In this document: positions 16,037 to 48,318 of the stretch, piece after piece
Layout: every line of letters begins with the position of its first letter
How positions within the stretch are numbered: position 1 is the stretch's first letter
Assembly (NCBI GenBank): GCA_947305645.1
Contig: CAMZEC010000003.1
Span: 1-64,000, forward strand
DNA from: an uncultured Bacteroidales bacterium
Lineage (GTDB): Bacteria; Bacteroidota; Bacteroidia; Bacteroidales; UBA932
Reading direction: 5' to 3'
Length of the DNA: 64,000 nt
Program-made: the position numbers and the translations under genes
The notes under the pieces: model-generated
Database searches by the model: none
What the model saw: the letters and a program-made list of their open reading frames with translations, nothing else
Told to the model about the DNA's origin: nothing

Positions 16037-18610
16037 ATGAAGAAGCTCGATCAGTACATGCTGAAGTCGTTTATCGGACCTTTCGTCGCGATACTGCTGA
16101 TCGTAATCTTTATCCTGCTGCTTCAGTTTCTCTGGCTCTACATCGATGAGCTCGTAGGCAAGGGCCTGGGTATCTGGGTCATACTGGAATTCATGATGTG
16201 GGGTGCCTGCACCATCTTGCCTACGGCGCTTCCGCTGGCGGTGCTGCTGTCTTCCGTTATGGTAATGGGACAGCTGGGGGAGAACAAGGAGCTTATGGCC
16301 ATCAAAGCGGCCGGCATCTCCCTCGGCCGCCTGATAGCACCGCTTATCGTTACTGCTTTCTTTATCGCTGTAGGAGCGTTTTTCATAGGTAACAACCTGG
16401 TTTCCAAGGCGTATAATGAGATTTTTACTCTCCGCGACGACATTACGCGTACAAAGGAAAGCATAAAAATCCCTTCAGGTACTTTCTATGAGGGTATCGA
16501 GGGGTATGTGCTCAGGGTTGACGGACAGGACGACGAATCGGGGATGATGTACAAGGTGCAGGTTTACGACCACACCGCCCGAAAGGGTAATACTTCCCTG
16601 ATTGTCGCGGATTCTGCCCTCCTGAAGATGTCCAAGAATAAAGATTATTTGATTTTCACCTTGCATAACGGCTCTAACTACCTGGAGTCTAACAAGATGA
16701 CTTATAACGACACCTCTTTGGCGCTTAGCCGGGTGGATTTCTTGAGGCAGGACCTTATTATTCCTTTGTCCAATTATACTTTCGAACATTCGGATTCCAG
16801 CCGTTTCGGCGACCAGGCAAAATCCATGCGCCTGGACCAGCTGATGGCGCAGAGCGATTCCCTGTCCAGAAAGAATGAAGCCGCTTTCGACACTCACTAC
16901 CGCCGTCTCCGCACCATGGGCTACTTCACCAACCGTTCGCAGCTGGATACGGCCAAGAGGGGAGACCTGAGCACTTTCTACGAGTCGGACAAAATGTGGA
17001 GCTGGTCCGGATACGAACAGATAAAGAGTGCATATGACAGGGCGGCAAGCGAGGCCGACCGCATGTCCGGCGAAATCCTGACATACAATCACGACATTTA
17101 CCAGTCGTCTTTTTATCTCAGGCGTACGGATGTGGAGTTGTATAAAAAGTTTGCCCAGGCTCTTGCCTGCTTTATATTCTTCTTCATCGGAGCGCCATTG
17201 GGTGCCATGATAAAGAAGGGCGGCGGATTGGGCATCAGCGCCATTATTTCCGTTTTCTTCTTTGTGATTTACTGGATAGTCCAGATTTCCGGAGAGAAGC
17301 TGGCCAAGGACGGTTCTATTTCTGCATTCAACGGAGACTTTGTTTCGGCCTTTGTGTTGGCGCCAATGGGTATTTTCTTGACTTACAAGGCAATAAAAGA
17401 TGCAGAGCTGTTCAATATGGATACAGTGAAATCTACCTGGCGCAAGCTGTGGAGCGTCGTATGGGGTTTCTTCCGCAAACCACGTATCGTTTACATGGGT
17501 ACGCCGGAGTTTGCCGTGGCTCCGCTGGATGAACTTGTTTCCAAGGGCTATAAGGTGGTCGGTGTCGTGACGGTTGCGGACAAGCCGAGCGGCCGAGGCC
17601 TTAAGGTGAACGAGAGTGCCGTCAAGAAGTATGCTGTGGAGCACGGTATTCCGGTGCTGCAGCCGGTAAAGCTGCGCGATCCGGAGTTCCTGGAGCAGCT
17701 GGCGGCTTTCAGGGCCGACATCTTCGTGGTGGTGGCCTTCCGTATGTTGCCTGAGGAGGTGTGGAAGATGCCCCGCCTGGGTACCTTCAACCTGCATGCT
17801 TCGCTCCTGCCGCAGTACCGCGGCGCGGCGCCTATCAACTGGGCTCTCATCAACGGCGAGCATCGTACGGGCGTCACTACTTTCATGATTGACCATGCTA
17901 TCGATACCGGTGGCATCATCCTTCGCGAGGAGTGTATCATCGAACCTGACGACGATGCCGGCAGCTTGCACGACAAGCTTATGGAGATGGGCCGCAAAGT
18001 GGTTGCCGATACCGTTGACCTTCTTATCCAGCACAATGTAGAGTTGCGCATGCAGCGGTCGTTCGTTCAGGGTTCCGAGGTGCTGCACCCGGCTCCCAAG
18101 CTTACCCGTGAGTTGTGCCATATAGACTGGAACCGCCCGGCGAAGGAGATTGTGAATCTCGTTCGCGGCCTGTCACCTTATCCTGCGGCGTTCGCTGAGC
18201 TCGCGCTTGGACCGGCAGAGGGGACTGACCGGCAGAACTTCGCGCTTCGCGCTCATCCCTCCCACGTCAATTCAATGTTCAGCCAGGAGCAAGCTCCTGC
18301 CTTGTCCACCGAATCTCCGTGGACCCCTCCCTCTAACGCGTCCGAGGGTGGACACGGTTCTGCCGTGTCAGTTCCCTCTGCCTCTGGCACGAGCTCTGAA
18401 AAGTCGATGAAGATCTACAAGGCGGAAGTGATGAAGAAGGACGGTGCCGAGCCGGGACGGATCTACAGCGACGGCAAGACCTACCTGGCCATCGGCTGCA
18501 GCGATGGCGCCGTCAGCATCAAGGACTTGCAGCTGGAAGGCAAGAAGCGTATGGATGTTGGGGCGTTCCTGCTGGGCTTCAGGAACCCTGAAAGCTGGCG
18601 CGCAGTCTAG
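16037..18610 (+). CDS. fmt: Fused ORF: LptF/LptG-family permease (approx. 16037-17455) + methionyl-tRNA formyltransferase (approx. 17480-18610)
   Basis: N-terminal MKKLDQYMLKSFIGPFVAILLIVIFILLLQFLWLYIDEL...YjgP/YjgQ-like; C-terminal RIVYMGTPEFAVAPLDEL...FNLHASLLPQYRGAAPINWAL; one uninterrupted 857-codon frame. Confidence 0.88.
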   Translation: MKKLDQYMLKSFIGPFVAILLIVIFILLLQFLWLYIDELVGKGLGIWVILEFMMWGACTILPTALPLAVLLSSVMVMGQLGENKELMAIKAAGISLGRLIAPLIVTAFFIAVGAFFIGNNLVSKAYNEIFTLRDDITRTKESIKIPSGTFYEGIEGYVLRVDGQDDESGMMYKVQVYDHTARKGNTSLIVADSALLKMSKNKDYLIFTLHNGSNYLESNKMTYNDTSLALSRVDFLRQDLIIPLSNYTFEHSDSSRFGDQAKSMRLDQLMAQSDSLSRKNEAAFDTHYRRLRTMGYFTNRSQLDTAKRGDLSTFYESDKMWSWSGYEQIKSAYDRAASEADRMSGEILTYNHDIYQSSFYLRRTDVELYKKFAQALACFIFFFIGAPLGAMIKKGGGLGISAIISVFFFVIYWIVQISGEKLAKDGSISAFNGDFVSAFVLAPMGIFLTYKAIKDAELFNMDTVKSTWRKLWSVVWGFFRKPRIVYMGTPEFAVAPLDELVSKGYKVVGVVTVADKPSGRGLKVNESAVKKYAVEHGIPVLQPVKLRDPEFLEQLAAFRADIFVVVAFRMLPEEVWKMPRLGTFNLHASLLPQYRGAAPINWALINGEHRTGVTTFMIDHAIDTGGIILREECIIEPDDDAGSLHDKLMEMGRKVVADTVDLLIQHNVELRMQRSFVQGSEVLHPAPKLTRELCHIDWNRPAKEIVNLVRGLSPYPAAFAELALGPAEGTDRQNFALRAHPSHVNSMFSQEQAPALSTESPWTPPSNASEGGHGSAVSVPSASGTSSEKSMKIYKAEVMKKDGAEPGRIYSDGKTYLAIGCSDGAVSIKDLQLEGKKRMDVGAFLLGFRNPESWRAV
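18197..18396. repeat. Palindromic element of about 200 bp inserted in-frame in the fmt part
   Basis: Imperfect terminal arms of about 38 bp: ctcgcgcttggaccggcagaggggactgaccggcagaac vs reverse complement ctcgtgccagaggcagagggaactgacacggcagaac; inner palindromes caggagc-aa-gctcctg and gtccac...gtggac. Confidence 0.85.
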
Positions 18611-41648: not shown

Positions 41649-43352
41649 ATGAATAGAATAATCGAATGTGTCCCGAATTACAGTGAGGGACGAGACAGGA
41701 AAGTGATAGACGCCATAGTGGAGGCTGTCGCATTAACTGAAGGCGTAAAAGTCCTTAACGTAGATCCGGGAGAGGCGACCAACCGCACGGTGGTGACCTT
41801 CGTGGGAGAGCCGGAGGCGGTATGCGAAGCGGCTTTCCGAGGCACAGCTAAGGCCCAGGAACTCATAGACATGCGCAAGCATCACGGGGCCCATCCGCGC
41901 TCCGGCGCCACCGACGTACTCCCACTTATACCTATATCCGGAGTCACCCTTGAAGAGTGTGCCGAAATGGCGCGCAAGCTTGCCGAACGCATGTTCAAGG
42001 AGCTCGGAATCCCGTGCTACTGTTATGAAGCCGCGGCTTTCAAGCCTGAGCGCAAGAACCTTGCGGTCTGCCGCGCAGGTGAGTACGAGGCGCTTCCCGA
42101 CAAAATCAAGGATCCCGAACGCCGGCCCGACTTCTGCGGAGAATGGGACGAAACCGCCGCGAAATCAGGCGCTTCCAACGTGGGTGCACGCAACTTCCTG
42201 GTAGCAGTTAACTTCAACCTGAATACAACCTCCACCCGTCGCGCAATGGCAGTGGCCTTCGACGTACGAGAAAAGGGCCGCAAGGCACGCGAGGGCGGCT
42301 CGCTCACCGGCAAACTCCTCAAAGATGCCGACGGCGAACAGATTTGGATTCCCGGCACTCTCAAGGGCTGCAAGGCAATAGGCTGGTACATAGATGAATA
42401 CGGCATCGCCCAGGTGTCAATGAACATCACTGACATAGACGCCACCCCGCTTCATGTAGCGTACGAAGAAGTGACGCGTGCCGCAGCTGCCAGGGGACTC
42501 CGCGTGACAGGTGCCGAAATAGTGGGCCTGGTGCCCAAGCGCGTGCTCATCGACGCCGGCCGTTTCTACCTGGAACGCCAGCAGCGGTCGCTCGGAATAG
42601 ACGAGAGCGAGATACTAAAGATTGCCGTCAAGAGCATGTCGCTCGACGACCTGCGCCCCTTCGACCCCAGAGAGAAAGTCATTGAATACCTGATGCTTGA
42701 CGAGGATGCGGAAGCCGTAAAGCACCGCCTGGTACGCCTTAGCGCGGAAGGACTTGCCCGTGAGACGGCGTCCGAATCGCCCGCTCCCGGAGGCGGCTCC
42801 ATATCGGCATACATGGGCTCGCTCGCAGCGGCCCTCGCCACCATGGTCGCAAACCTCTCCGCCCACAAGCGCGGCTGGGACGACCGCTGGAAAGAGTTCT
42901 CCGACGTTGCCGAACAGGGGCAGGCGCTTATGCACGAGCTGTTGGACCTCGTGGATGAGGATACGGCCGCGTTCAACCGGGTGATGGATGTATTCGGCAT
43001 GCCTAAGGGTACTCCGGAGGAAAAAGCCGCCCGCGAAGCTGCTATGCATGAGGCCACTCTGTACGCTGCTTCTGTGCCGCTGAGGACCATGGAGGCCTCC
43101 CTTAAGGCTCTTCCGCTGGCCCTGGATATGGCTCAGAAGGGCAACCCCGCATCGGCCTCCGACGCCGGTGTGGCCGCCCTCGCCGCTCTTGCCGCCGTCC
43201 GCGGGGCGCACCTGAACGTCCGCATCAACCTCTCCGGCTTTGCCGATCAGGCTGCCGCCGCCCCGTTGCTGGAGCGCGCAGCAGCGATCGAAAAAGAGGC
43301 CGCCGACCTGGAGTCGCAGGTGCTCGCCGCGGTGAACGGACATATTGAGTAG
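41649..43352 (+). CDS. ftcD: Glutamate formimidoyltransferase / formimidoyltetrahydrofolate cyclodeaminase (bifunctional)
   Basis: IIECVPNYSEGRDRKVIDAIV; C-terminal cyclodeaminase domain SPAPGGGSISAYMGSLAAALATMVANLS. Confidence 0.94.
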   Translation: MNRIIECVPNYSEGRDRKVIDAIVEAVALTEGVKVLNVDPGEATNRTVVTFVGEPEAVCEAAFRGTAKAQELIDMRKHHGAHPRSGATDVLPLIPISGVTLEECAEMARKLAERMFKELGIPCYCYEAAAFKPERKNLAVCRAGEYEALPDKIKDPERRPDFCGEWDETAAKSGASNVGARNFLVAVNFNLNTTSTRRAMAVAFDVREKGRKAREGGSLTGKLLKDADGEQIWIPGTLKGCKAIGWYIDEYGIAQVSMNITDIDATPLHVAYEEVTRAAAARGLRVTGAEIVGLVPKRVLIDAGRFYLERQQRSLGIDESEILKIAVKSMSLDDLRPFDPREKVIEYLMLDEDAEAVKHRLVRLSAEGLARETASESPAPGGGSISAYMGSLAAALATMVANLSAHKRGWDDRWKEFSDVAEQGQALMHELLDLVDEDTAAFNRVMDVFGMPKGTPEEKAAREAAMHEATLYAASVPLRTMEASLKALPLALDMAQKGNPASASDAGVAALAALAAVRGAHLNVRINLSGFADQAAAAPLLERAAAIEKEAADLESQVLAAVNGHIE

Positions 43353-43380
43353 ATTCTTCGCTTCGCTCAGAATGACATTT
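43351..43380. repeat. Repeat copy overlapping ftcD stop and lying upstream of hutU
   Basis: agattcttcgcttcgctcagaatgacattt; inverted relative at 45421-45451. Confidence 0.85.
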
Positions 43381-45466: not shown

Positions 45467-46954
45467 ATGGTACATTATATCACCCCCGCGCGCCTCACTC
45501 TCGAGCGCCTTAAGGAAATAATCGATTCGCACGCAACCCTGGAACTCTCCGAAACGGCGGTCGCGGCAGTGGAGAAGTGCCGCAAGTATCTGGACGACAA
45601 AACGGAAAACCTCGATCAGCCGCTCTACGGCATAACCACCGGCTTCGGCTCCTTGTACAACGTGAACATCCCCAGGGAGGATCTTTCTGCCCTGCAGCAC
45701 AACCTGGTGATGTCTCACGCCTGCGGAACCGGGCCCGCCGTGCGCCCTGAGATAGTCAAGCTGATGCTTTTCCTGAAGGTGCAGAATCTGTCGTACGGGC
45801 ACTCCGGAGTGCAGCTGATAACGGTTCGGCGGCTCATCGACATGTTCAACAACGATGTGCTGCCGGTGGTGTATTCCCAGGGCTCGCTGGGTGCATCGGG
45901 AGACCTGGCGCCGCTGGCCCACCTGTCCCTGCCGCTTATCGGCATGGGCGAAGTGCTTTATAAAGGTCAGGTGCGTCCGGCGGCCGAAGTCTGGGCGGAA
46001 CTCGGCTGGGAGCCCATTACACTTCAGTCCAAGGAGGGTCTGGCACTGCTGAACGGTACCCAGTTCATGAGTGCCCATGCCGTTTGGGCCATACTCAAGA
46101 GCATGCGCCTGTCCCGCTGGGCCGACCGTATAGGAGCGATGTCGCTGGATGCGTACGACGGCCGTATAGAGCCGTTCCTGCCGCTGACTCACCAGCTGCG
46201 GCCGCATGTGGGCCAGATACTTACAGGGAAGGCTTTCATGTCCATTCTTGCCGGCAGCGAGCTGATCCGCAGGCCCAAGGAGAATGTGCAGGATCCCTAC
46301 AGCTTCCGTTGCATCCCTCAGGTGCACGGTGCCGTAAAAGATAATATCCTTTATGTTAAGTCGGTGATCGAAAACGAGATAAACTCTGCTACCGACAACC
46401 CTAACATCTTCCCCGACGAGGATATGATTATCTCTGCAGGCAACTTCCACGGTGAGCCCATAGCCATTCCGATGGACGCCCTCGCCATAGCGATGTCGGA
46501 GCTGGCGAGCATTTCCGAGCGACGTACCTACCAGCTGATACACGGCCTGCGCGGGTTGCCCAAGTATCTGGTGGCCAATCCGGGTGTCAACAGCGGATTC
46601 ATGATTCCGCAGTACACGGCGGCTTCTATCGTTTCCCAGAACAAGGGCTTGTGCTGGCCTGCGTCCTGTGACTCCATCCCTTCGTCCCAGGGTCAGGAAG
46701 ACCATGTGAGCATGGGATCCAATTCCGCTACCAAGCTGGTGCGTATAGTGGACAACGTGGAGACGGTGCTCGCTATTGAGCTCTTCAACGCTGCCCAGGC
46801 GCTTGATTTCCGTCGTCCCGCCAAGACTTCGCCGGCCCTTGAGAAGATTTACTCCGACTACCGCAAAGTGGTTCCTTTCATAGAGAACGATACTTACATG
46901 AGTCCGCTGATCCAGCGTTCCGTGGAATTCCTTTCGCGCGAAGAATATATATGA
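45467..46954 (+). CDS. hutH: Histidine ammonia-lyase
   Basis: YGITTGFGSLYN; GSLGASGDLAPLAHLSL with ASG (MIO) triad; QEDHVSMGSNSATK. Confidence 0.96.
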   Translation: MVHYITPARLTLERLKEIIDSHATLELSETAVAAVEKCRKYLDDKTENLDQPLYGITTGFGSLYNVNIPREDLSALQHNLVMSHACGTGPAVRPEIVKLMLFLKVQNLSYGHSGVQLITVRRLIDMFNNDVLPVVYSQGSLGASGDLAPLAHLSLPLIGMGEVLYKGQVRPAAEVWAELGWEPITLQSKEGLALLNGTQFMSAHAVWAILKSMRLSRWADRIGAMSLDAYDGRIEPFLPLTHQLRPHVGQILTGKAFMSILAGSELIRRPKENVQDPYSFRCIPQVHGAVKDNILYVKSVIENEINSATDNPNIFPDEDMIISAGNFHGEPIAIPMDALAIAMSELASISERRTYQLIHGLRGLPKYLVANPGVNSGFMIPQYTAASIVSQNKGLCWPASCDSIPSSQGQEDHVSMGSNSATKLVRIVDNVETVLAIELFNAAQALDFRRPAKTSPALEKIYSDYRKVVPFIENDTYMSPLIQRSVEFLSREEYI

Positions 46955-48318
46955 TTATCAAGAATATAGGTGAGCTTGTGGGGATTGTTCCCGAGGGCGT
47001 TCTGCTGAAGCGCGGCGCGGAGATGTCGGAAGTTGGCATCCTCTGCAACGCCTGGCTCCGCATCGAGGACGGTTGCATCGTCGACTTCGGAGTTGAGCCC
47101 TGTGGCAGTCAGTGTCCCGGAGGCGTGTCCACCCCCGGACACGGGCAGGGGGAGGGGCCCGCTGGAGACAAGTTATCGCATAGCGATGACGCAGGAAACA
47201 GTGGGAGGGGCCGGAGCGAAGCGGAGCTGAGCGGAGTCCTCCGGGGTGCTGACTGTCATGGGGCTCCCGAAGTCCTCGATGCTAAATGCGGCATGGTAAT
47301 GCCGGCATTCTGCGATTCCCACACCCATATAGTATATGCCGGAAGCCGGGAAGGGGAGTTCCTGGATAAGATTAACGGCCTGAGCTATGAAGAGATAGCG
47401 GCTCGTGGAGGCGGGATACTGAATTCCGCCGACCTGCTGCATGAGACTTCCGAAGATGAACTGTACGAGCAGTCCATAGTGCGGGTGCGCGAAATGATGG
47501 CTGCAGGCACCGGAGCCATGGAAATCAAGAGCGGCTACGGCCTCAATCCTGCCGACGAGCTCAAGATGCTTCGCGTCATTGCGCGAATAAAAGCGAACGT
47601 GCCGGCGACCGTACGCAGCACCTTCCTCGGTGCCCACGCCGTCGGCCGCGGCTTCACCCAGGAGGCATATGTACAGCAGGTCATCGACATGATGCCGGAG
47701 GCTGCAAGGCTTGCCGATTTCGTGGATGTTTTCTGCGACGAAGGTTTCTTCTCCCCGGCAGAGACCGAACGCATGCTGGCCGCTGGAGCCGCCTGCGGCC
47801 TGCGTGCGAAGATTCATGCCAACGAATTGGCAGTCAGCGGGGGAGTGGAGGTCGGAGTAAAGCATGACGCCTTGTCGGTGGACCATCTTGAGCGTACCAC
47901 GCCGGCCCAGATAGAGGCCCTTAAAGGCTCCGCGACCATGCCTACCATGCTGCCTGGCTCGTCCTTCTTCCTGGGGATTCCGTTCGGGGATGCACGTGCG
48001 TTTATAGCTGCAGGTCTGCCTCTGGCTCTGGCGTCCGACTACAATCCCGGCTCTTCGCCATCTGGCGACATGCGTTTTGTGATGGCCCTGGCGTGTATAC
48101 GCATGCGTCTCACGCCTGCGCAGGCATTCAACGCCGTCACGCTCAATTCGGCGTACGCTATGGGCGTCAGTGACACACTCGGCTCCATTACCAGGGGCAA
48201 GCGGGCCAACCTTATTCTTACCAGTCCTGGATGGAACCTCACCCGCCTGGCCTACAATTATACCACACCGTTTATCGGGAAAGTGCTCATCGGCGGTGAA
48301 TGTTTGCAGGATAATTGA
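46951..48318 (+). CDS. hutI: Imidazolonepropionase, with in-frame palindromic insert
   Basis: VMPAFCDSHTHIVYAGSREGEF, IKSGYGLNPADELKMLRV, STFLGAHAVGRGF, KIHANELAVSGGVEVGVKHDALSVDHLE. Confidence 0.94.
   Translation: MIIKNIGELVGIVPEGVLLKRGAEMSEVGILCNAWLRIEDGCIVDFGVEPCGSQCPGGVSTPGHGQGEGPAGDKLSHSDDAGNSGRGRSEAELSGVLRGADCHGAPEVLDAKCGMVMPAFCDSHTHIVYAGSREGEFLDKINGLSYEEIAARGGGILNSADLLHETSEDELYEQSIVRVREMMAAGTGAMEIKSGYGLNPADELKMLRVIARIKANVPATVRSTFLGAHAVGRGFTQEAYVQQVIDMMPEAARLADFVDVFCDEGFFSPAETERMLAAGAACGLRAKIHANELAVSGGVEVGVKHDALSVDHLERTTPAQIEALKGSATMPTMLPGSSFFLGIPFGDARAFIAAGLPLALASDYNPGSSPSGDMRFVMALACIRMRLTPAQAFNAVTLNSAYAMGVSDTLGSITRGKRANLILTSPGWNLTRLAYNYTTPFIGKVLIGGECLQDN
47098..47263. repeat. Palindromic element of about 166 bp inserted in-frame in hutI
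   Basis: Terminal arms ccctgtggcagtcagtgtcccggag vs reverse complement ccccatgacagtcagcaccccggag; inner gtgtcc-acccc-ggacac and tcgc-ata-gcga hairpins. Confidence 0.85.

Follow-up and report, generated by a model that had tools for sequence, protein, structure and literature searches.

The fmt palindrome

Why does the gene for methionyl-tRNA formyltransferase (Fmt) of an uncultured Bacteroidales bacterium carry a palindrome of some 200 bp within its coding sequence, and what kind of DNA is it? The window analysed here comprises 64,000 nucleotides (contig CAMZEC010000003.1, positions 1 to 64,000), and all coordinates refer to it. From the ORF reading, comparison with orthologues and alignment to E. 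coli Fmt (1FMT), the plus-strand ORF at 16037-18610 (857 codons) encodes an LptF/G-like permease fused to Fmt, with the Fmt part forming the 3' portion of the ORF (17486-18607, plus strand). The ORFs of same-genus fmt matches, except those cut by contig ends, span about 600-860 codons versus about 320-350 codons in the other families of the order, and fusion of an LptF/LptG-type permease to Fmt looks like a genus-wide trait.

The ORF stays open right through segment 18197-18396, with no stops. The segment forms a single long, imperfect hairpin that encloses further hairpins, and its predicted fold of -106.6 kcal/mol compares with -72.2 +/- 4.6 kcal/mol for shuffled controls (z -7.5), none of 200 shuffles folding equally well. 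The preliminary description had proposed an in-frame palindromic element of about 200 bp here, and both the open frame and the fold bear this out. The proposed ends, 18197 and 18396, agree with the outermost arm pairing, 18197-18206 with 18387-18396 (10 nt, 90%), which sets the limits of the element; a second arm pairing joins 18214-18229 to 18367-18382 (16 nt, 94%). Folds of minimum energy extend too far into the flanking DNA, and the ends of single copies were not taken from them.

Between its arms, the element has an ordered interior, all of it given on the plus strand. The left arm (18197-18238) consists of an outer helix, an internal loop and an inner helix, and pairs with the right arm (18357-18396). 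A small hairpin, H1 (GCGC-TTC-GCGC, 18242-18252), corresponds to the second helix of the covariation analysis described below and precedes the conserved block CATCCCTCCCA (18254-18264). Hairpin H2 (18261-18323), here a long variant containing the inner palindrome GGAGCAAGCTCC, is followed by the conserved block CCCCTCCC (18324-18331), the last three bases of which begin the pseudoknot strand CCCTC (18329-18333). The partner of this strand is GAGGG (18344-18348), the loop of hairpin H3 (18337-18356). These assignments draw on the fold, the alignments of copies and covariation.

What does the insertion do to the protein? Alignment to 1FMT pairs query residues 1-241 with E. coli residues 6-242 and query residues 307-360 with residues 244-298, which places an insert of about 65 residues in the C-terminal domain, between E. 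coli residues 242 and 244, where the E. coli protein has one residue. The insert, which includes the peptide AHPSHVNSMFSQEQAPALSTESPWTPPSNASEGGHGSAVSVPSASGTSSEK, leaves the formyltransferase motifs NLHASLLPQYRGAAPIN and DTGG undamaged. It is absent from more than 40 same-genus Fmt orthologues read at the site, comprising 23 from the set L033-L060, in which five were not readable there, and about 20 more; most same-genus orthologues have about 8-10 residues at this position. Other short inserts lie near the site in some orthologues (L033, L034, L048 and L227). In an AlphaFold prediction made with 40 orthologues, Fmt residues 247-302 have a pLDDT below 50 and are flanked by confident strands at 235-241 and 306-316. 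The prediction thus depicts the insert as a floppy, unstructured turn of a beta-hairpin, in keeping with the loop that had been anticipated, and the insert is probably translated as part of Fmt.

A dispersed family with a conserved fold

Is the fmt palindrome unique? About 50 places in the window's own genome (G000) are matched by blastn, and with a covariance model the count is at least 48, a floor from 60 scored candidates. Dispersed copies and insert-free orthologues were both named as checks in the preliminary description; neither of the observations it named as incompatible with its reading, a lack of other copies and conservation of the segment in all fmt orthologues, was made. Members of the family share one plan: left arm, H1, CATCCCTCCCA, H2 of variable length, GGGCCCCTCCC, a few bases, H3 and right arm. 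The window holds a second copy at 47124-47225 on the minus strand, of a subtype in which the pseudoknot is CCCCC/GGGGG and the apex of H2 is conserved (like CATCGCTnnGCGATAACTTG); it lies in frame close to the N-terminal end of imidazolonepropionase (HutI; ORF 46843-48315, plus strand).

The fold is strongly supported by covariation. In an alignment of 57 copies, 83% of cells are paired versus 68% in shuffles, doubly changed cells number 392 versus 160, and the covariation score is 0.398 versus 0.154. Every helix is supported, and the signal collapses once the pairing partners are slid by one column. The pseudoknot, formed by the H3 loop and the bases after CCCCT, is paired in 99.6% of cells, and a single one of its positions is G-C in 36 copies, A-U in 12, U-A in eight and C-G in one. 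The arms have scant fixed sequence save beside the core, yet they are paired in most copies; the arm sequence is almost free to vary provided that pairing is kept. A fixed, pseudoknotted centre between free but pairing arms indicates that the folded single strand is what matters.

Three intergenic copies (L105, L117 and L081) sit in the loop of an A-tract/T-tract hairpin that resembles a two-way terminator. Together with the covariation and the pseudoknot, this arrangement could be taken as the mark of a functional structured RNA family, a regulator or terminator whose fold acts in RNA and whose copies in genes are incidental. The covarying, pseudoknotted fold is indeed what the element has in common with Rfam families. 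However, a search at E values up to 1 gave no Rfam match to the element beyond a single weak one, which falls below its gathering score and outside the core. Moreover, the places that copies occupy are not conserved, with empty sites in close relatives, and copies lie in genes in either orientation and use at least five frames. We consider a structured RNA an unlikely explanation.

How widely is the family distributed? We searched 400 same-genus genomes, drawn from a larger group. By the covariance model, copies occur in 53 of 61 genomes of the window's genus and in only five of 247 genomes of the same order; these five represent, among others, a second genus of the family and three further families. 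The exact core pattern occurs in at least 117 stretches from named species genomes. Among the 80 matches listed, 79 come from metagenome-assembled genomes (MAGs) of Bacteroidales/Bacteroidia, mostly from rumen and gut, and one from Sphingomonas, which we take to be a chance match. The same pattern had no match in 2.9 million viral contigs, and carriage of the element by phages was rejected on that result. Our literature search found no paper on such repeats in this Bacteroidales lineage.

Copies inside genes

Where do the copies reside? Among the 134 copies whose flanks were long enough to judge, 60 (about 45%; one is the Sphingomonas stretch) lie inside ORFs of at least 200 codons. The host genes recognised from sequence include those for UvrA, FolC, TilS, TrmH, KsgA, AtpG, PolA, UvrD/PcrA, DnaX, TruB, LpxK, AroB and HutI. 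Pfam backs ten hosts, with families that include DHQ synthase, UvrA, SpoU methylase, Mur ligase, GH3, amidohydrolase, radical SAM, PP-loop and KsgA, and the domains split or spanned by copies include DHQ synthase, KsgA, the TilS PP-loop and radical SAM. For example, comparison with solved structures places an insert of about 40 residues in KsgA immediately after the GQHFL motif region. Similarly, an AroB insert of about 102 residues, made up of two elements, lies between GHAIEA and HGEAVAVGM.

When the flanks alone were compared with the proteins of other loci, 28 copies were seen to interrupt a homologue, and 25 of these are in frame with every homologue. The remaining three (L002, L049 and L160), whose flanks match weakly at about 40-57% identity, did not pass and are ambiguous. 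Copies in genes occur sense and antisense and in at least five of the six frames, so no particular peptide is being kept.

Could the element instead be removed from the RNA, or bypassed by ribosomes, to give an Fmt that lacks the inserted residues? Pairing of the arms would place the ends of the insertion near each other, and the hosts are essential genes. Removal, however, would require neither the preserved frame of 25 of the 28 interrupting copies nor reading frames free of stops; a shortened fmt insert in one sister species (G011) is still in frame, and no intron or ribozyme family matched among the Rfam models. Splicing or bypass was rejected on the frame result, and we give it hardly any credence.

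Two other dispersed repeats also occur in frame. One, CCCCCTGCACCCCCAGGGGACGGGGGGCGTACCCCCCGA(A/C)ACCCCCTG, is found at L010, L171, L227 and other loci, including FolC, KsgA and fmt of other species, encodes a peptide like PLHPQGTGGVPPETPC and is sometimes nested in hairpin H2 of the present family. The other is the short repeat CATTCTGAGCGAAGCGAAGAATCT (window 43351-43374), present in UvrA of G000 and in fmt of G342, G325 and G445; in UvrA and the fmt loop of other species it reads in frame as CHSERSEES or CHPERSEGS.

Turnover between related species

How stable is a given site? The fmt locus was compared across sister species at 77-88% DNA identity. The site is empty in G405; it holds the element in opposite orientation in G577 (88% identical at fmt), G356 and G548, the shortened copy in G011, and another repeat family in G358. 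The element of G577 and that of G548 are the same but for three compensatory arm changes (GCAGGTGTGCCCTCC/GGAGGGCACACCTGC versus GCGGGTATCCCCTCC/GGAGGGGATACCCGC). In the more distant G005 (L048), the site carries a short, unrelated palindrome, each arm some 20 bases long, of which the left one is similar to the sequence of the empty site in G036, as if an arm had been copied from the target.

Other sites tell of replacement as well as of presence and absence. Copies in the trmH genes of two sister species (L008 and L268) have different core subtypes at the same site, within similar outer arms, which suggests core replacement or gene conversion. Likewise, a probable histidine-phosphatase gene (L018) has a different subtype at the same place in G000 and G577, and the right flank in G000 still resembles the end of the element found in G577, which indicates that new elements insert into older ones or take their place. 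A third dispersed repeat, GGCCTTTGGCTCCCGAAAAGGGAAGGGGCCCGCGTCAGCGGGAAGGCGCCCCGGGAC, noticed in the flank of L019, occurs at over a dozen places in G577, in one of which G000 has the present family.

For three further copies of G000, two of them intergenic and the third within a GH3 gene, the corresponding site in G577 is empty. Since the genomes compared are only about 85% alike, an empty site may, in any single case, reflect loss in G577 and not gain in G000. No target duplication is evident at these three sites, where the flanks are only 83-88% alike. These data bear on whether the element is a classical MITE moved by a DDE transposase, as its size, inverted repeats, high copy number and lack of a gene of its own would suggest. 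The architecture, in which the centre is conserved and the ends differ between copies, the reverse of a MITE, argues against this, and the lack of evident duplication may do so too. We regard a MITE origin as very improbable.

What moves the element?

The family combines many copies, presence or absence between close species, in-frame insertions in housekeeping genes, a pseudoknotted core and co-varying arms. We are confident, though short of certain, that the fmt segment is one copy of a family of mobile palindromic elements spreading through the chromosomes of this Bacteroidales genus; the dispersal of its copies implies that something moves the element. We propose that the fold of one DNA (or RNA) strand is recognised by the mobility machinery, which would leave the core constrained and require of the arms only that they pair, and that movement proceeds via a single-stranded intermediate without target duplication. 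Copies arriving in frame in permissive surface loops would persist, since either orientation of the element permits read-through and the peptide that it adds remains a loop without structure. Later insertions into old copies, core replacement and erosion would then rework each site. Among the loci examined, no clear case of widely separated core halves, as in an autonomous form with a gene inside H2, was seen.

Which strand folds is not decided by wobble pairs, G-T and A-C counts being 68 versus 92 in the arms and nine versus 30 in H2. On the strand opposite fmt, the hairpin loops frequently follow the pattern C-GNA-G or C-GNNA-G, and such loops are unusually stable in DNA. Taken with the somewhat commoner A-C mismatches, which are G-T on that strand, they give a weak hint of single-stranded DNA.

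Which enzyme might be responsible? A clade of RAYT-like Y1 (HUH) transposases is present in eight of eight copy-rich genomes versus two of 12 copy-poor ones, and over 61 genomes it correlates moderately with copy number (Spearman 0.51, uncorrected for phylogeny). The clade is missing from several genomes with 12-19 copies and from the element-bearing genomes of other families. That this clade mobilises the family is a speculative proposal, and one we hold at less than even chances. A related reading would make the family a REP-type element, a RAYT-mobilised hairpin, that has grown large. Besides the Y1 correlation, REPs of several phyla sit within uvrA, uvrD, polA and truB genes (PMC3733652), the same genes as here, and this recurrence suggests that those proteins share a tolerance of insertions. 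REPs, however, are 20-40 bp long and carry a tag at one end, and those of the GTAG family frequently border a RAYT gene, none of which is true of the present element, which is several times longer. Among 136 copies, GTAG lies within 8 bases of the left end in two and of the right end in five, and CGTC in 15 and four, respectively; there is no core motif beside the five Y1-like genes of G000; and the Y1 correlation is imperfect. We consider a REP origin possible but doubtful.

Relation to known elements and significance

Rickettsia palindromic elements (RPEs) are palindromes of 100-150 bp that enter ORFs at exposed sites without frame loss; different groups lie near each other in some orthologues, and a site can differ in element group between species (PMC3767692, PMC2229807). 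Like RPEs and their Wolbachia counterparts (WPEs), the present family comprises dispersed palindromes, both intergenic and in frame in conserved proteins, inserted into exposed segments (for Fmt, an exposed loop by structure prediction), and related species may have different element groups at one site. In contrast to RPEs, it belongs to another phylum, is larger (about 200 bp in fmt), has a conserved, pseudoknotted centre flanked by arms that vary freely yet pair, and shows no enrichment of the CGTC tag of RPE-4/6 at its ends; its core, among the 80 matches listed, was found in Bacteroidales/Bacteroidia and once in Sphingomonas, not in Rickettsia or Wolbachia. To our knowledge, a conserved pseudoknotted core has not been described for RPEs. 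We therefore call the family RPE-like by analogy, having compared RPEs by their description, and the earlier suggestion of a comparable translatable element in Bacteroidales is right in this sense rather than as shown descent from RPEs. Bacterial MITEs that carry reading frames, namely ERIC, YPAL and the 107-bp form of NEMIS, are likewise known from in-frame fusions (PMC2229807). They share with our element a stem-loop of about 100-200 bp, but MITE ends are conserved and the target is usually duplicated, whereas here it is the centre that is conserved.

We tentatively suggest that the family may be a mobile element of a new class, one whose recognition depends on the fold of a single nucleic-acid strand, with the pseudoknotted centre as the recognition unit and arms free in sequence but complementary, and surviving in genes as it is translatable in at least five of six frames.

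Finally, in-frame palindromic insertions have been presented as peculiar to Rickettsia and Wolbachia, the shorter REPs being scattered parallels. The present family is a new one of the rare selfish DNAs that live within proteins, and an apparently independent instance of them, abundant in a gut and rumen lineage of very many species. It makes many natural insertions available, in UvrA, PolA, UvrD, KsgA, TilS, FolC, AtpG and others. Its movement becomes testable, the strict covarying fold offering a concrete target for binding and cutting. So does the origin of protein segments from selfish DNA, because a single Fmt loop can be traced empty, filled, flipped, replaced and eroded across sister species.
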